Source: Acorus gramineus (taxonomy: Eukaryota; Streptophyta; Magnoliopsida; Acorales; Acoraceae). Taken from it: a stretch of DNA of 64,000 bases. The notes under the pieces were generated by a model. The model had not been told where the DNA came from, did no database searches, and was given only the letters and a program-made list of their open reading frames with translations. A program made the position numbers and the translations under genes. The stretch covers positions 7,712,584-7,776,583 of the forward strand of contig CM060847.1 in NCBI GenBank assembly GCA_030737835.1, written 5' to 3'. Shown piece after piece: positions 1,867-60,605 of the stretch (positions are counted from its first letter, which is position 1; each line of letters starts with the position of its first letter).

Positions 1867-2722
1867 GGGGAAAATCTTCTTTAACTCCTTGAAATTTTCT
1901 TGAAATCACAAAAAGTCCCTCTAAAATCAGAAAATCATTCTAGATCCTCATAAAGTATATATGGTTAACGAATTTAGTCCCACAGTCAAGAGTATATTGA
2001 AATCTTACTAAAATTAGATTCAGTCCCTACAAACTTTATAAAATCAGATTTAGTTCTTTTGTAAGACAAAATAACTCCCGTCATTTTTTAACATCCTCAT
2101 GTCCTGAAATGTCATCCTCATCTGTAAAAAAAAAAAAAAAAAATCCATCGAACCTCAATTGATCTACAAAATTGAGTCATTTTTCAATATTTTTCCATCC
2201 TCAACCTCATTACAGAGATTGAACAAAAAAAAAATTACAGTTTCATTAACTCCATTACAAAATCAGTGGAGTATACAATTTAAAAACTAAATCAAAATTC
2301 TATAATACATTCTTAACTCAAAATTACTAGCAATAAAAAGCATAACACCTTGACTATAAAACTATAATTTGTTTAATAAAATTTAAATAAATTAGTATAT
2401 ATTTTTAGATAATCGCATGGATTTTTTATGATTTTTGAAAGATTTCAGGGAGTTAACACGATTTTTAAATTTCATAGTGACTTTTTTTAATTTTCATAAG
2501 TTTTCAGGGAGTTATATCGATTTTTTCTAACAAAGAAAATAAATTTTAAAAGGGTATAACAGTAATTTACCATGCATGGTTAGGGTTAACCACACATCTG
2601 GTTAGTTATAGGGATTAAAATAAATATTATTTAATAAGATAGAGACATGAGGGGATTTATCAATTTTACAGGGACTTTTTCTGATTTTCATAAGTTTTCA
2701 GGGAGCTATATCGATTTTTCCC
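1867..2722. mobile_element. Foldback element A, Mutator-like (non-autonomous)
   Basis: Starts GGGGAAAATC and ends GATTTTTCCC. The arms are diverged inverted repeats carrying CTCCCTGAAAA-type sequence. Flanks ATTTATATA and TTGTATATA match at 7 of 9 positions, as expected for an old 9-bp target duplication. Left-arm CC(C)T motifs sit at 1886, 1917, 1946 and 1979, about 30 bp apart. A further related arm lies internally at about 2440-2530. There is no coding capacity. Confidence 0.55.
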
Positions 2723-4179: not shown

Positions 4180-5110
4180 TTGTCCAAGAATTTGAGGATG
4201 CTTATGCTATGAGTTATCTGAAATTTTGTATTTAACAAAAGAATGTGTCAGCCATTTGATTTTCAAACTTCATTGGACAATATAATATTTGAATCATGGG
4301 AAATTTGAGTTGGTATGTTTATAAATATGAATTTATATTGTAAAGGTTGTGTCATTTTCTGCTATCGAAGTCCAGATCGTTATTTGTGATAAACATGGTA
4401 ATAAACAAGCTTAATGTCAGATACAAACTGATGCAGCGTACGAATACGCTCTTCTGCGGACCTGATTAAAGATGCAAGATCTACAGGCTTCAATGACGCT
4501 GTTAATTCTTAACGAAGAATATCAGGACGATGGGCTTCAACGTATCTGTTGATTCTTAAGAATACCAGAACGATGGACTTCTATGAATATGCTATTATAT
4601 CAAGAACAACAAAAACAATAGGAGAATTTTAATAAAGGGAATAATCTCAAATTTTTAAAAATCTAATCTTCTCTTAATTTTGTGTTTACAAAGTTTATTT
4701 ATAGAGTAAAGAATCCCAATAAATTAGGAACTCAACAATAAATATCTTAAATCGCCTAATCTTAACTGAATTTTAAATAAAAATACAAAACATATCTGAA
4801 TATACCTAAATATAAAAATATTAACTAATCCTAATTATCTATAAAAGATATGATAAACCTAACAAATAATATTAAAATTGTAAATCATCAACAATCGTCC
4901 ATTTGGTGGTCCTAGATCGAATGGTCCATGATCGTGCTGCATCAGTAACACAGCTAAGCCCTGAACCGTTGTGCTATGACCAATAGAACTTTTTTTTTTC
5001 CATAGATGTTGACTTTTAACACTAATCAAAATTCAAACCAAAAGCTAAATTTAATGAAAAAATTCATTTGAAATTGATTATCTAAAAACTGATATTGTGA
5101 AACTGAATTA
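4180..5110 (+). repeat. Segmental duplication, copy 1 (interrupted)
   Basis: Sequence at about 4180-4425 and 4985-5110 is a diverged direct copy of 5328-5590 and 5690-5800. Shared stretches include GGATGCTTAT, ATAATATTTGAATCATG and AAAGCTAAATTTAAT-like runs. A probable solo LTR (4429-4944) interrupts this copy and is absent from copy 2, so the duplication predates that insertion. Confidence 0.55.
4429..4944 (-). mobile_element. Probable solo LTR
   Basis: The segment begins TGATGCAGC and ends GCTGCATCA, a TG...CA pair with a 9-bp terminal inverted repeat as in LTRs. On the minus strand a TATAAATA motif lies near 4697-4704. The flanking five bases are CAAAC and GTAAC, matching at 3 of 5. No internal retrotransposon genes or second LTR are present. 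It interrupts one copy of a local duplication. Confidence 0.45.
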
Positions 5111-5327
5111 TTAGTTGATTTGACCATTAATTTGAGGTCTAAATATAACCCCAAGGCCCAAGACTAGTTGGGAAAATCTTGGATGCAAAGAATCACATAA
5201 ATCTTTTGCATTAAATCTAAAAGGATTTGAATTCAATTTTTATGGAGAGCAAACTCATGACACTTTAATTAAAGAACAAGTCCTGTGTTGTTTATAACCA
5301 TGTTTTGGTTATCTTAAAATCTCTATA

Positions 5328-5800
5328 AACAAATGTCCAATAAATTGGGGATGCTTATATTCTATGAATCATATGAAATTATGTATTTAGCGAAGACTAT
5401 CTCAGCTATTTGAATTTCAAACTCTAATTGACCATATAATATTTGAATCATGTGAAATGAGTTAGTATAATATATACGAATTCAACTATTGCTACATTAT
5501 AATATAAAGGTTGGTACCATTCTTCTGCTGTCAAAGTTCTGCTCCATATTATTTGTGTAAAAACGTAATAATAAATATGATTAATGTAGTAGATCAAGTC
5601 TCACCTTTGAAACAGAACTATAACAAAGCACATTTGGTCTAGTTTGAAATCAATTTAAAAAACAATTTGTCATAAAAGCTGCCACTGAACAATTTTTTTT
5701 TCTACCATAAATGCTGTTTTTGTTGATTTCTAATACATAAAAGTAAAATCCAAAATCAAAAGTTAAATTTAATTAAAATAAAAAATTGGCATGAACAAAA
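5328..5800 (+). repeat. Segmental duplication, copy 2
   Basis: This is the uninterrupted partner of the repeat at 4180-5110, in direct orientation and clearly diverged. The last about 100 bases recur a third time near 6985-7100, inside a MITE-like unit, so part of this repeat belongs to a dispersed family. Confidence 0.5.
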
Positions 5801-15495: not shown

Positions 15496-15718
15496 GGGTT
15501 TTTTTTTTAAGTCCCCATAAACTATAGGATTTAGTAATCGATTCCTTACTTCTTCATATTTTGATTTTAGTTCGTATATGTTCCTTTTTAGTCTCTAGGA
15601 GTAGAAGGGATTAAAAAAGAATATATCCTTAAATCTGGGGACTAAAATCAAATTGTGAAGAAGCGATTGATCGATCACTAAATCCTATGGTTTGTGGGGA
15701 CTTAAAAATAAAAAACCC
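15496..15718. mobile_element. Foldback element B, Mutator-like MITE with perfect 9-bp target duplication
   Basis: A 223-bp palindromic element starting GGGTTTTTTTT and ending AAAAAACCC. It is flanked on both sides by TAATTGAAT (15487-15495 and 15719-15727), a perfect 9-bp duplication. The arms carry TTAAGTCCCCA and ATCGAT motifs. CC-containing motifs lie at about 15513, 15543 and 15573, 30 bp apart. It is the same family as elements D and F. It is non-coding. Confidence 0.88.
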
Positions 15719-17780: not shown

Positions 17781-19112
17781 CCTCCGTTTGGGTATAGAAT
17801 AGCCAAGGGAAAAGTGAGAATAAAGCAGAATATGTGTTTTTTTATTGTTTGGATGCAGGGAATACCCAGAGATAAACTATGTCGGAATAAACTGGTATAA
17901 AGTGGTACATGAATTCCAACCAACCCCTAGAATTAGTCACCGTTTAAATACAGAATATGACTTATTCTTGGGTATTTAGTTATTCTGACATAAGTGAGTA
18001 TAAATAAAGATAAAGTGATTTTATGTTTGGTTGTGTTTTGAATTATTTTCATTGGGAAACGTAAGAATAAAAATTTCGTTGTTTGGGTAAAATGTGAATA
18101 AAGTGTGGATAAGGATTTATAAAAAGTAAAAAAATAATTATAATTTATTTGATATGTGATTTATTAGAGGTGATGACAATTGATTTGATAATAGACCCAC
18201 ATATTCTTTGGGTGAAATAACCTGAAATAACTTTAATTCCCCCCGTTTGTTTTGGGAATAAGCCCCTGGATAACCCCGAATAACCTCAGATAAATGATAA
18301 AGGGTGTCTGGAAACCCCGAATAACCCCTGATAAAGTATGCTAGAATAAACTGACATAAAATGATATATGAATTCCAAGCAACCTCTGGAATTAAAGTTA
18401 TCATAGGTTATTCCACTCAAAGAATATGTTGGCCCACTGTCAAATCAACTATCATCACCTCTTATAAATCACATGTTAAATCAACTATCATTATTTTTTC
18501 ACCTTTTATAAATAGTTATTCATACTTTATTAACATTTTAGCTAAACAACAAAACATTTATTCTTACATTTACCAACGAGAATAATTCAAAACACAACTA
18601 AACACAAAATCAATTTATCCTTATTTATACTCACTTATACTTGGATAAATATATACCCAAGAATAAATCCTATTCGGGTTGGTTGTATACCACTTTATAT
18701 CAGTTTATTCTGCATAAGATATCCCAAGGTATATCAGACATCCAAATAAGAAAAATGGTTATTCTACCTAATTCTCAGTTATTCCAGGGGTTATTCTCGA
18801 AACAAACAGGAGCTTAAAGTTATTACAAGTTATTCCACCCAAAGAATATGTGGGTCCACTGTCAAATCAACTGTCATCACCTCTAATAAATCACATGTCA
18901 AATCAACTATCATTATTTTTTCACCTTTTATAAATCTTTATCCACACTTTATTCATATTTTATCCAAATAACAAAATAATTTATTATCACGTTTTCCAAT
19001 AAGAATAATTCAAAACACAATCAAACACAAAATTATATTATTTTTATTTATGCTTATTTATACCAAAATAATTATATGCTCAATAATAAATCATATTCTG
19101 TATCCAAACAGA
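17781..19112. mobile_element. Cluster of nested, related foldback elements
   Basis: The left part (17781-18235) and right part (18815-19112) contain long inverted copies of the same sequence. For example, TTATTAGAGGTGATGACA at 18163 faces TGTCATCACCTCTAATAA at about 18872. Between them, 18238-18812 is a second element with its own inverted ends (CCGTTTGTTTTGGGAATA... and ...TTCTCGAAACAAACAGG), whose inside carries yet another copy of the same core. Outer ends read CCGTTTAAATACAGAATATG and CATATTCTGTATCCAAACAG. The best reading is one MITE family inserted into itself. No transposase is present. Confidence 0.7.
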
Positions 19113-20294: not shown

Positions 20295-20510
20295 GGTGCG
20301 TTTGGTTGCTCGATTGCAAAACTGATTCTGCGGGAATCTGGGTTTTAAAATTGATTCTGCAGGAAGCTCACCTCCCTTAGATTTTTGAAATTATAGCTTT
20401 TGAGCACTATTTGTCTGAAATCTGTGTGCATGAAACTGTTTGGTTGCATGATTATAAACGCAGCTTCCTGCAATCCCAAACGCTGACCAATCGCGCAATC
20501 AAACGCACCC
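20295..20510. mobile_element. Tourist-like MITE (PIF/Harbinger type)
   Basis: A 216-bp element starting GGTGCGTTTGGTTGC and ending GCGCAATCAAACGCACCC, so the terminal inverted repeat is about 20 bp. TAA flanks both ends (20292-20294 and 20511-20513), which is the 3-bp target duplication expected of PIF/Harbinger MITEs. It is non-coding. A related copy lies at 22393-22616. Confidence 0.75.
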
Positions 20511-20734
20511 TAAAGGTGTTTCCAAACGTTGTTATACATAATCCATTTTTCAGCTATTAAAAAAAAATTATGCAATTCATTAAAATATATGTTTAATTTT
20601 TTTATAAAAACATTTATCTCATGAGATGAAGTTAATTATTAAAAAAAATTAAAAGACTAAAAATAGAGCTAAAAAAAGAACAACTATGTAAGTAACATCA
20701 CAACTATTGCAGTTCCTTTTACATCCCTAAAAAA

Positions 20735-21180
20735 AACGGATGCTCGTTATCCTCTGGACACATCTCTTTATGGCGTGTCCGATTGCTCGTCAATTATTGA
20801 GCCGCTTGACGACGAGGATGGCGGATGAATTTGCCTCCTTGAATGATTTATGGGAGGCGCCTCCATTTTAAGGGAGATAGAAGCGCGGCTGGGCAAAATC
20901 ACTCAATCCTTTTTTCCTATCGTGGTATGGACGATTTGGCTAACCCGTAACCATTTGATTTTTAAGAATACAAGAGTTTATATTGAAAATTTATGGGATT
21001 CAATTTTATTAGAGATTGGAGATTGCTTGCATTGGGACAAACAAAATTTTATTGAATCGATGAGTAGGCCTTTTGTATTACCTCCTCAGTAGACCCTCAT
21101 CTACTTGTTTTTACCGCTTTTAGTATGTTTCGCTTTGGTTTGAGTAAAAATAAAGGCGCATGTCTACCATTTTATAAAAA
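20735..21180 (+). pseudogene. LINE (non-LTR retrotransposon) 3' fragment
   Basis: The frame starting near 20753 reads THLFMACPIARQLLSRL, typical of the zinc-knuckle-like zf-RVT region at the C-terminus of plant LINE reverse transcriptases. After a frameshift near 20867, the next frame continues VVWTIWLTRNHLIFKN, the conserved WxIWxxRN block. The fragment ends near an A-rich stretch at about 21177. It is 5'-truncated and inactivated. Confidence 0.75.
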
Positions 21181-21559
21181 AAAACTATATAAAATATTTT
21201 TTTAACATATATTTTATTTCTTATCTTATCTTATCTTATTATTATTATTTTGAAAAATGGGTGTTCCCTTGGGTTTAATACCCAAATCTCCATCACGAAG
21301 AGAGGAGGTGCTAGCCAACATATCAAAGTTTGGTTCTCTATATTTTATTTTTTAATTAAGCATAATCTAATATTATAAAATTTAAAACATGTCTACAAAT
21401 GATAACCTAGGCTCTAGTCTAGAACCACAACCCTGAGTAGGCGCGCAAAAAAAATATTTTGTACAAATCTTACAATTGTTTTTATTTTTTAAAATATATT
21501 TACATATTTAATAAAATAAATATTTTTATAAAAAAATGAATACATTTTTTAACTGAACA

Positions 21560-21970
21560 AAAAAGATGATCCGATCCTTGCAAAGGAGTTATGGCGCGAG
21601 GTGGGGCGCGCCACTTCCCTCCCATCGCCCTTTATATCTCTAGAGGAGATGTCGACCACGAGGAGGGTGGTGCAGTGCGTGGGGGCTTCTAGGCTGGCAA
21701 TGTTCATCCCCCTTTCGATGGTGTCAGCGATTGTTTAGGCCATTTAGCAGACTCGAAATGAGGTCATCTTCCGTGATTCCAGAGTCTACATTGAGATTAT
21801 GTGAGAGCTGATTGCGAGTGGGGATGTTTTATAGTTGGGGCACAGGGGATTTTGATGTCCAACAGGACCATCATAGTCACAGTTTGAGTGATGGTGCTCG
21901 GACAAGGTTTGTGCTAGATATCTTATCTCCGACAACTAAGTCCCGACTCCCATGCACCCTTTTTCTCTAA
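21560..21970 (+). pseudogene. Second LINE 3' fragment
   Basis: Across frames the sequence gives EELWREVGRATSLPSP and TRNEVIFRDSRVYIE, the same C-terminal LINE region as the fragment 0.8 kb upstream (TRNHLIFKNTRVYIE). Stops interrupt it at several points. The divergence between the two fragments suggests two independent insertions rather than a recent duplication. Confidence 0.65.
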
Positions 21971-22392
21971 GCTTGTTTTTAAAATTTATGTTTTTTATTT
22001 TAGCCTGTACACTCTCACCCCAATTCAGACCCGTAATTTCACTCTCATTAATGAATATGATAGTAAAATGTTGTAACATACGTTTACTTTTTTTTCAAAA
22101 ATAGATCCGATCTTGTCAAGATACACAATAATATAATATAAATTCAAATTACTCTATTAAGTCAATACAAAAATTACTAGAAATATCAAAATTAAAAATA
22201 ATTAACACCAAGAAGAAATAAATATGTAAAAAAAAATCAAGTCTGTATTTGAAGAAAGAGAAAATAACATGCAAACATTTTCTAAAAATAATAATAAATA
22301 CGTTTATTCAGATATGTCATTGAATAAATTTAGCTACAATAAATTTTAATAGCCATGTAACAACTAATTCAAAATATCTTCATAAAATATTA

Positions 22393-22616
22393 GGGTGCGT
22401 TTGGTTGCACGATTGCACAGCGTTTGCGATTGCAGTAAGCTGTGTTTGTAATCGTGCGATCAAACAATTTTACTGTAACAGTTTACTGCACACATATTTC
22501 AAGTAAATAGGTATCAAAAGCTGTGATTTTAAAAAGTGAGAAAATGAGCTTCTGCATAATCAGTTTTAAAACTGAAATTCTTGCAGAATCAGTTTTACAT
22601 TCGAACCAAATGCACC
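22393..22616. mobile_element. Tourist-like MITE near the p24 promoter
   Basis: The left end GGGTGCGTTTGGTTGCACGA and right end ACCAAATGCACC match the element at 20295-20510. The body is about 220 bp and non-coding. The target duplication is not clear. It ends 165 bp upstream of the p24 start codon, inside what must be promoter or 5' leader. Confidence 0.6.
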
Positions 22617-33435: not shown

Positions 33436-34465
33436 GGGTTAAAGACATCTAAGTCCCTACAAACATGAGAAAATCTATATAAGTCCCTATTAAAATTGAG
33501 ACAGACGTATAAGTCCCTGAAAACTCAGAAAAATCCAATTATCATCCCTGAGTTAAATTTCCATCCAAGCTTAACGGAATATTCCCAGAATATTCCATCA
33601 CATATAATTGTGTTAACATTGAAGTCCTTATAAACAGTCATAAAGACAAATTAATCCCTGCAAAAGATAAAATTGTCCCTAAAAGACTTTTACATTAAAT
33701 TGTGTACACATTGCTATCCCTATAAATAATCATAAAGAAAATTAATCCCCGCAAAAGATAAAATTGTCCCTGAAAGAATTTTACATTTAATTAAATAGAA
33801 ATTACAGTATTTATAAATAATTGTAAAGACAAATTGGTCTCTGTAAAAGACAAAAATACCCCTGAAGGATTTTTACATTTAATTGTGTAGACATTGCAGT
33901 CTTTATAAACAATCATAAAGACAAATAATATAATTTATTTATTTATTTTTTCATCTTCTATCCTATCAATCACACTCCACCTGAAGATCATAATTTGGAT
34001 GTAAAACCAATATTTTAACCGGTAGAATGCATTCTTCACGGGCATTTTGGTCTTTTATAGGGACCATTTTGTCTTTACGATTATTTATAAGGACTGTAAT
34101 GTTTATCCAATTAAATGTAAAAATCTTTCAGGGACAATTTTGTCTTTTGTAGGGATTAATTTGTCTTTATGATTATTTATAGGGACTGCAATGTGTACAC
34201 AATTTAATGTAAAAGTCTTTCAGAGGCAATTTTGTCTTTTGCAGGGACTAATTTGTCTTTATGACTATTTATAAGGACTTCAATGTCTATACAATTATAT
34301 GTGATGGAATATTATGAGAATATTCCGTTAAGTTTGAATGGAAATTTAACTCAGGGATGATAATTGGGTTTTTCTGAGTTTTCAGGGACTCGTATGTCTG
34401 TCCCAATTTTAATAGGGACTTATATGGTTTTCCCATGTTTGTAGGGACTTAGATATCTTTAATCC
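33436..34465. mobile_element. Foldback element C, Mutator-like, with perfect 9-bp target duplication
   Basis: A 1030-bp element starting GGGTTAAAGACATCTAAG and ending with the complement of GGATTAAAGATATCTAAG. It is flanked by TTTATTATA on both sides (33427-33435 and 34466-34474), a perfect 9-bp duplication. The arms of several hundred bases are inverted copies. AAGTCCCT-type motifs occur at 33455, 33485, 33515 and 33546 in the left arm and as GGGA at 34354, 34385, 34414 and 34444 in the right, at 29-31 bp steps. The inner part has further inverted units (GGGACAATTTTGTCTTTT-like). There is no transposase. Confidence 0.88.
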
Positions 34466-39017: not shown

Positions 39018-39914
39018 GGGTCAATTGCTCAAATACCCTGTAGGCTGTAGCCCAACCCCAATATTTTCTGTACCCCACTTTTTGAAAAAAAAAAATTTAC
39101 TCGTGTAGCAAATATTTAATTTTTTTTCTACCTTTCTCCTTTAATTCTCCCAGCACCACAAAATCACGGTTTTTTCCTGTAAGTACATATATGTTTTCTG
39201 GAACTTGTAGAACACAAAATGTAATTTATGTAAATATTATCTGTAAGTACATTATTATGCATATCATGTAAAAATAGTAACTTGCAAAATACTAGAGAAA
39301 CATACGTGCGCTAATGCATAACACCTGAAAATATTTTATCACAAACATGAAAACACTTAAATTCATCGAATGTTTGCATTCTGACGTTTTTTTTCCTACC
39401 CTAATGAATTGAGATGTTGTATTTCCTCGGATCATCTTTATGTCATTTTGGCTAAAATCAAATCTATTGTTACACCTTCAAGTTAGTAAGCGTACATCAT
39501 TAGGAAGAACTCGTAATTTAAACTATATTAGAGATGTAACAATTAGTCAAACACCCAAATAAATTAAATACCAATAAGTGTGTACTTCATGACAATATAA
39601 GAAATATATATATAAATTAATGTTATGTATTAATGTATGTTTCTCTAGTGTTTTACAAGTTACGATTTTTATATAACATAATAATGCATTTACAGATAAT
39701 ATTTACAGAAATTACATTTTGTGTTCTCCAAGTTACAGAAAACATATATGCACTTACAGAGGGAAACTGCGATTTTGTGGAGTTGGGGGAATTAAAAGGA
39801 TGATAGTAAAAAAAAAAATTAAGTGTTTGCTGTAGAGATACAAAAAAAAGTTTTAAAAGGTGGAGCACAAAAAATATTAGGGTTAAACTGTAGGAATATT
39901 TGAGCAATGGACCC
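39018..39914. mobile_element. Foldback element G, Mutator-like, with perfect 9-bp target duplication
   Basis: An 897-bp palindromic element starting GGGTCAATTGCTCAAATA and ending with the complement of GGGTCCATTGCTCAAATA. TAATTTTTA flanks both ends (39009-39017 and 39915-39923). The arms extend inward over 200 bp each (ACAAAATGTAATTT against AAATTACATTTTGT, CATATATG cores). Non-coding. Confidence 0.88.
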
Positions 39915-51976: not shown

Positions 51977-52254
51977 GGGTTTTTATTTTTATTTTTAAGT
52001 CCTCGTAAACTATATCATTTAGTGATCGATTCCTCACTTCTTCGTATTTCGATTTAAGTCCCCTTATTTAAAAAATATGTTCATTTTTAATCCCTTACAT
52101 GGACTAAAAAAAAACCAAATAATTTAGGGATATGTCCCTCCCGAGGATTAATAAGAAACATACACTTTGAATCTAGAGACTTAAATTAAAATATAAAGAA
52201 GTGATGGATCGATCACTAAACTATATAGTTTACAAGACTTAAAATAAAAAACTC
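51977..52254. mobile_element. Foldback element D, Mutator-like MITE (same family as B and F)
   Basis: Starts GGGTTTTTATTTTT and ends with the complement of GAGTTTTTTATTTTAAG. The arms share TAAACTATAT and TTTAGTGATCGAT. The flanks AAAAATAAT and AAAAATCAA match at 7 of 9. CC motifs occur at about 52001, 52032 and 52060. The element is 278 bp and non-coding. Confidence 0.75.
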
Positions 52255-59713: not shown

Positions 59714-60605
59714 GGGATTTTTGCATATATATACCCCTGTTAAATTTTAATTTTGTCAAAATACCCCTGCAAAAACTCACAGTGAAAAAATACCCCTCGA
59801 AAACTTTAAGTGAGTGCTATCGTGCCCCTGTGGTCAAATTCTGTCTGGTATGATTAATGTTTTTCGTTTTCATTCCGTTATAGGCGTTAAAATGACCCTT
59901 GTACCCTTAGGATACCCGAAGTGAGTTTTTTTTTTTTTGCATATATACCCATCTTAAAATCCATATTTGCATAATTACCCCTTTTATTTTCAACATTACA
60001 TAAATACCCCTGAAATTTTAATGCATCGTGCAAATTTGCCCCTGAGGTTAGTGTTCATGAGGATTGATTAAAAAAAATCTCCATTAGTCACCGTTAATCA
60101 CATGTAAATAGTTCAAAATACCCTCCCCACGCTCTGTTTGGATGGTCAAACCCTATTTCTTTCTTCCTCCAATCTTATCTCTTTTTTCCTCCTTCAACCT
60201 TATCTCTTTCTTCTTCACGCAGGGTTGAGTAGGGTGTGTAATTTAAATGAGGGGTAAATTGATCATTTTATAAGGTAGGGTTAAGAATCTAACTATAGTT
60301 CGGTCTGCGTTCCTAACAATGACTGACGGAGAAAAAATTTGCACAATTTATTTTTTTAATGGTGGAAACAATAGGGGTAATTCCAAAAATATAGGTGTTA
60401 AGAGGGGTATTTATGCAAAAAGCTTTTTTTTCAAAATTAGTAAGGGCATTTAAGTCAATATACATGTGGAATTAGACTTTTTAACCATAGTTAATCCAAA
60501 GTTCTTCACGGCGTGTGGTATAGGGGTACGGTTGCACTCACTTAATGTTTTGGAGAGGTATTTTTGCACTATGGGTTTTTGCAGGGGTATATATGCAAAA
60601 ATCCC
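59714..60605. mobile_element. Foldback element E, Mutator-like, with nested related unit
   Basis: An 892-bp element starting GGGATTTTTGCATATATA and ending with its complement. The flanks TCCTTTTAA (59705-59713) and TTCTTTTAA (60606-60614) match at 8 of 9. In the left arm CCCCT motifs lie at 59734, 59764, 59793 and 59825. A second, internal arm repeats the pattern at 59948, 59978, 60007 and 60039 with the same 30/29/32 spacing. Its mirror near 60360-60425 suggests a related element nested inside. Non-coding. Confidence 0.82.

Follow-up and report, generated by a model that had tools for sequence, protein, structure and literature searches.

A terminus-anchored ruler of four C-rich sites in foldback Mutator-like elements of Acorus gramineus: putative docking sites for a MuDR-type transposase

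The ends of Mutator-like elements (MULEs) vary greatly in length for reasons described as unclear (PMC6446971). Several known systems resemble the foldback elements of Acorus gramineus analysed here. MuTAnT / AutoMuTAnT of Medicago truncatula are also foldback MULEs with GGGG ends, 9-nt duplications, short non-autonomous copies and a mudrA-like autonomous partner, but they target TA microsatellites, and a phased motif ruler does not form part of the description given there (PMC4486113). Muta1 and Muta5 of Aedes aegypti share with our elements the type-2 foldback structure and MULE ends with subterminal tandem repeats. Their repeats, however, are described as 12–15 bp long and present in nine copies, with linkers of 3–4 bp in Muta1 (PMC5225508), whereas the Acorus arrays consist of four sites about 30 bp apart, have diverged linkers and are common to several families. 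The Tm1 Mutator/Foldback elements of root-knot nematodes also have 9-bp duplications and modular long ends with repeats, but the reported tandem units are 13–15 bp long and variable in number (PMC3169594). Repeats in MULE ends thus have precedents in both of the latter reports. In tandem-TIR MULEs, ends are duplicated within one element, similarly to the inner array of element E (see below), although the whole TIR is duplicated and a 30-bp site ruler is not part of that account (PMC3310237). In the maize MuDR/MURA system, a conserved TIR transposase site serves many non-autonomous elements, but the accounts describe one conserved site region, not four (PMC3909067, PMC3440606). Long ends with several transposase sites have a precedent in Galileo, a member of another (P) superfamily, in which the THAP domain is reported to bind repeated sites in the long TIRs; these foldback ends also contain several sites for the DNA-binding domain of the transposase, but their distances from the terminus are about 70, 570 and 710 bp and they are unphased (PMC3688188). 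No published description of a four-site ruler was found in the literature searched, which was mainly open-access and is therefore weak evidence of novelty, and a search by the motif letters returned noise only.

The foldback elements of the window (the whole 64-kb stretch of DNA that was analysed) are listed in Table 1. An earlier note had described five of them, A to E, as different in sequence but sharing GGG...CCC ends, 9-bp target duplications and a CCCT motif phased at about 30 bp. A scan of the window for inverted GGG...CCC ends whose flanks agree at 7 or more of 9 positions recovered C, B, D, E and an additional element, F, and gave none in six shuffled windows; element A, with the ends GGGG and CCC, was missed by it. 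The window elements possess the long terminal inverted repeats typical of MULEs. As for the flanking duplications of 8–11 bp (typically 9) expected of MULEs, they are perfect in B, C and F, so that the 9-bp duplications ascribed to all five elements held fully for B and C; E matches at eight and D and A at seven of the nine positions. The long arms of C with internal direct repeats (the 92-bp tandem, in both arms) are the mark of foldback (type 2) elements. Element C had 1698 candidate matches in its own genome, the best matches of the 40 scored being 93–100% identical, and the flanks of seven other C copies matched at 9/9 in two, at 8/9 in two and poorly in three. Comparison of the arms placed B and D in one family, and the five elements of the earlier note therefore represent four families.

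Two more structures were observed in the window. Nested inverted repeats with direct repeats of 10–11 bp (GAATAACCCCT, TATACCACTT) at 17942–19109 form an unclassified foldback-like element, and at 20310–22604 a pair of diverged inverted repeats, separated by about 2.3 kb, is possibly a further DNA transposon with long ends.

Table 1 Coordinates of the foldback elements and of their phased sites (window positions unless a locus is named)
Feature	Position	Strand	Target duplication	Sites and remarks
Element C	33436..34465	.	TTTATTATA at both flanks, 9/9	1030-bp foldback; ends GGG/TCC; high-copy family
C left-arm phased CCCT sites	33455..33549	+		33455, 33485, 33515, 33546
C right-arm phased CCCT sites	34353..34446	-		AGGG at 34353, 34384, 34414, 34443
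C inner 92-bp tandem array	33600..33926	+		motif steps 30/21/41; mirrored at 34044-34302
Element A	1867..2722	.	7/9 (by eye)	left YCC sites 1886, 1916, 1945, 1978; ends homologous to MuDR-type element ends
Element B	15496..15718	.	TAATTGAAT, 9/9	sites partly decayed; one family with D
Element D	51977..52254	.	7/9	TCC sites 52000, 52031, 52059, 52091; site set about 5 bp off
Element E	59714..60605	.	8/9	sites 59734, 59764, 59793, 59825
Second, internal array of E	59948..60043	+		homologous to E's own end
Element F	39018..39914	.	TAATTTTTA, 9/9	sites decayed; not among the elements of the earlier note
Held-out family H	L011 5345-6449			GGG start; 30/29/32 in both arms

The general layout of an arm is YCC(T/C) at about 19, 49, 78–79 and 108–112 bp from the terminal GGG, that is, in the outer ~112 bp. 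The phased array was thus substantiated, but neither its uniformity nor the strict CCCT motif was: the rule is a terminus-anchored ruler of 19, +30, +29 and +31–32 and not a plain 30-bp period, and the motif is best written YCC(T/C). In the left arm of C, the sites lie 19/49/79/110 bp from the terminal G and the CCCT steps of 30, 30 and 31 are exactly those claimed; in the right arm (19/48/78/109) the spacing of about 30 bp holds, but the steps read 29/30/31 from the end inward and not in the order 31/29/30. Plain 30-bp periodicity over whole arms was rejected, since C is phased in its outer part only and not in the inner 92-bp tandem. The phase claimed for the left arm of A is present (20/50/79/112), with steps of 30/29/33 instead of 31/29/33 and with TCC(T/C) sites, CCCT being found at only one of the four; the right arm of A reads 19/49/68/109. 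The left arm of E (21/51/80/112) has the claimed steps of 30/29/32, and the array said to repeat them is present internally, with 29/32 in CCCT; the right arm of E has sites at 19/80. The spacing near 30 bp ascribed to B and D is clear in the left arm of D (24/55/83/115, steps 31/28/32 in TCC), where the usual pattern is shifted by about 5 bp, and weak in the left arm of B (17/48/87). The right arm of D has the 108 site alone and that of B has sites at 19/78/109, the last being the single CCCT of B. In the letters of F itself the phase was not seen; a sibling copy at C1:13196493 has intact sites at 30/29 where those of F are decayed. The suggestion that the sites lie on one DNA face was not borne out, as their angles at 10.5 bp per turn are 0, −51, −137 and about −120 to −154 degrees; a turn of about 10.0 bp would be needed to bring the four sites near one helix face.

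Dinucleotide shuffles were used for comparison with the arms. YCCY pairs at lags of 28–33 bp numbered 13 in the five left arms against 1.15 in the shuffles, none of 2000 reaching 13, and 4 against 1.24 in the right arms (P 0.04); the right arms of the five elements of the earlier note showed no best-lag excess (P 0.16). The ruler slots of A, D, C and E were filled in 12 of 16 cases in the left arms (shuffles 2.5; the shift of D scored as failure) and in 10 of 16 in the right arms (2.4). The held-out family H, whose sites lie 18/47/76/108 bp from the terminus, fills all four slots in both arms, and no matching flanks were found around it. Pooled, H, F, G and I filled 6 and 5 slots of 16, where shuffles gave 3.6 and 3.1 (P 0.10 and 0.14). 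The ruler is absent from two of them, G (L014 7735-8526) and I (L018 5397-5814), both met in random DNA. Three held-out inverted pairs have flanking duplications: 9/9 at C1:5653911/5654687, 8/9 at C1:23721569/23722568 and, in T runs, 7/9 (or 9/9 with the end shifted by one base) at C1:1317101/1318074. Among nine C copies, variation at the site columns was 0 against 0.028 elsewhere in the left arm and 0.017 against 0.036 in the right arm, which is weak evidence as the copies are few.

Element G has the ends GAGTGG/GGGTGG and a perfect 9-bp duplication. Its C runs are at 18, 39 and 96 on the left and at 39, 56 and 87 on the right; the first site is retained on the left and the later steps differ.

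The spacing was then counted over the genome, 398.6 Mb in 137 contigs. CCCT-N26-CCCT-N25-CCCT (steps of 30 and 29) was found 1303 times genome-wide, compared with 182 for steps of 40 and 39 and with 264 for the pattern read backward, a control that is possibly inflated by TCCC words within the same arrays. When a fourth CCCT was allowed anywhere 12–42 bp on, there were 757 matches against 115 in the backward control, and among the 100 matches listed the fourth step was 31 in 33, 32 in 25 and 30 in 8 (30–32 in 66, 28–33 in 79). Similarly, GGGA allowed at 8–38 bp outside the first site gave 516 matches against 25, with a distance of 19 in 71 and 18 in 15 of the 100 matches listed (17–21 in 93). 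Both histograms comprise 100 listed matches each, of 757 and 516, from the first contigs only and with duplicates and simple repeats kept; since neither distance was fixed by the query, these two spectra are the strongest evidence for the ruler. The recognition-like grammar proposed as common to several GGG...CCC families was thereby upheld, the ruler being present in A, C, E and H and genome-wide. Among 20 arrays picked by hand, GGG stands at −18 to −21 in 11 and YCCY 29–32 bp past the third site in 10. At G000 C1:8250285, 8253457 and 8256872 the same array occurs in direct orientation about 3.2–3.4 kb apart, apparently in a tandemly duplicated segment.

A random sample of 20 stretches of 10 kb (200 kb) was drawn at even spacing from C1 and C2 only. 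It contained 48 isolated CCCT pairs at lags of 29–32, against an average of 21.7 for four lags elsewhere (Poisson P about 8e-7), the range having been narrowed post hoc after 28–33 had given 90 against 59. The sample had five chains of at least three CCCT with steps of 28–32 bp, not above other steps (2–9); the window also had five, but there most other steps gave 0–2. Of the five random-sample chains, the arms of H account for two and a copy of C for one, and the remaining two have the look of simple C-rich sequence. The strict scan of the 200 random kb for GGG...CCC foldbacks with duplications returned one element, G, and the relaxed scan five rows, so that the sample is too small for a check on a collection of foldbacks.

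A source of transposase was sought with the PF03108 (MuDR-type domain) profile, which gave 471 candidates in the genome, 150 of them scored. At the locus L077, a phased end (19/49/78/109) lies 1.7 kb outside a MuDR-type DNA-binding domain. This copy is broken: two stops interrupt it, and the CCHC knuckle that comes after the domain lies in a different frame. The DDE core was not found in it by motif search and a Pfam scan of three ORF pieces assigned no family, the DNA-binding domain being identified by the PF03108 genome search. A search with the L077 end (40 of 432 candidates scored, 44 rows) placed 5 of the 43 non-query rows, representing four elements, at most 8 kb outside a listed PF03108 match in the right orientation (by eye), where about 0.12 would be expected by chance on a uniform genome, as reckoned for 39 places. 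The most complete case is C11:10927341-10934109, a 6.77-kb element whose two inverted ends are both phased (19/49/78 and 19/49/78/111) and which has a PF03108 match between them; its flanks share 10 identical bases, which lie in a T run and are weak as a duplication. On C83, an end with 19/49/78/109 lies 1.8 kb outside another PF03108 match, and single ends, both decayed, stand beside PF03108 matches on C4 and C79.

The Mutator-like identity proposed earlier was supported, as MuDR-type (PF03108) transposase sequence lies between ends homologous to those of A and C. Such matches are found inside homologous ends on C2, C11 and C83. The families with this homology are A, C and H only, and their arms match the MuDR-type ends beyond the motif; the right arm of A, for example, scored 55 against the right end of the C11 element and 16.8 when the linkers alone were shuffled. 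The window's A and C are thus relatives of MuDR-type MULEs. The right arm of B resembles two of four MuDR-type ends weakly (P 0.013 and 0.033), and the arms of D, E and F showed no linker similarity to these ends. The tie of B/D, E and F to MuDR-type MULEs is the ruler together with the duplications.

From these sequence comparisons we consider it probable that a MuDR-type MULE transposase docks at the arrays, which would descend from an old end and have been maintained by selection. The foldbacks of the window are best read as non-autonomous MULEs whose ends bear four C-rich sites in one orientation, anchored to the terminus and placed about 19, 49, 78 and 110 bp inside GGG. Each site may dock one DNA-binding domain (PF03108) of the transposase. 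The distance of the first from the cut would be 19 bp, or about two helical turns, while the others would hold further protomers in the end complex. Selection on working source elements would retain the ruler while the linkers change. We propose tentatively, as a matter close to evenly balanced, that the ruler (GGG, sites 19, 49, 78, 110) crosses the MuDR-type families of this genome and has outlived nearly all other end sequence, in which case it would reveal the protomer spacing of a four-step transposase filament at each end and permit MULEs to be found by spacing alone. A fixed ruler in families with dissimilar linkers would offer a testable answer, multi-site docking, to the question of MULE end length, and it gives a quantitative prediction for the transposase complex as well as a search pattern independent of similarity.

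The main rival, which we regard as unlikely but which accounts for part of the data, is that the array arose in one ancestral end as a 30-bp unit was duplicated in tandem, the families having simply inherited it and the spacing having no present function. The arms of A, C and H do align with the same MuDR-type ends outside the motif as well, the units of H read as a tandem repeat (AAATCCATATAACCCC) and E contains a second, internal copy of its array. Arm comparisons gave P 0.005 for the right arm of A with the left arm of C (0.07 for the left arm of A with the same arm) and P 0.005 for the right arms of B and C, the best arm pair for this weak resemblance. The common ancestry of A, C and H and the weak resemblance of B to C mean that the spacings are not independent and that ancestry explains part of them. 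Relatedness of the families, which the earlier note had named as contrary to its reading, was accordingly found in part: A, C and H resemble the same MuDR-type ends and B resembles C weakly, whereas E and F are without such similarity. The elements that it described as different in sequence include B and D, which are one family. For a wider comparison, 40 of about 100 matches listed for the 30,29 query were clustered after near-identical ones had been removed by hand; they formed 11 clusters at 55% linker identity, six with at least three members, and 4 clusters at 50%. Twenty of these arrays were taken by hand for diversity. In a set of 22 hand-chosen arrays the mean linker identity was 0.39 against 0.33 in shuffles, a surplus that fits inheritance, but the linkers of 176 of 231 pairs do not exceed the shuffle's 95% point, and yet motif, steps and end offset persist. 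As judged by their linkers, the ruler-bearing families are far apart yet not all independent. Without constraint, linkers and sites would be expected to decay together, and E, F and D have the spacing or its remains with no similarity to MuDR-type ends (B weakly), which speaks against inheritance alone.

It is rather improbable that the sites serve an element-coded anti-silencing or regulatory protein, or are promoter elements, instead of binding transposase. In VANDAL elements, the short motifs that VANC proteins are reported to bind make up tandem repeats (PMC5735166), and promoters are described in Mutator ends (PMC3310237). The VANC targets are arrays of YAGTATTAY or AGTTGTMC; the motif in Acorus is YCC(T/C). 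Against this reading, in 86 of the 100 matches listed a distance of exactly 18 or 19 bp separates the first site from GGGA, a precision that regulation does not need, and the array occurs at both ends and also in short elements. The chance selection of C-rich words in AT-rich DNA can practically be dismissed: the elements and the motif had been picked together, simple repeats and C-rich DNA of coding-like character occur among the matches listed and the random-sample chains are not in excess, but the sharp fourth-site and GGGA spectra, the excess over the control spacing and the lag peak in the random sample contradict it.

FAR1-like MULEs were examined as a possible partner of the phased ends and rejected on the basis of four loci and 20 further domains. 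A PF10551 profile search gave 1162 candidates, 150 of them scored, and the 20 domains examined of the 150 listed all look FAR1-like when compared by eye with motifs of that group. No phased GGG end encloses the gene in the 7.5 kb inspected at each of L029 and L050-L052; an H-type end is present at L029, but outside the FAR1-like gene. At L052, the FAR1-like MULE is flanked (1080-1700 and 4800-5660) by tandem repeats of about 225 bp with palindrome-like TTTAAGATACA...TGTATCTTAAA, a different end design.
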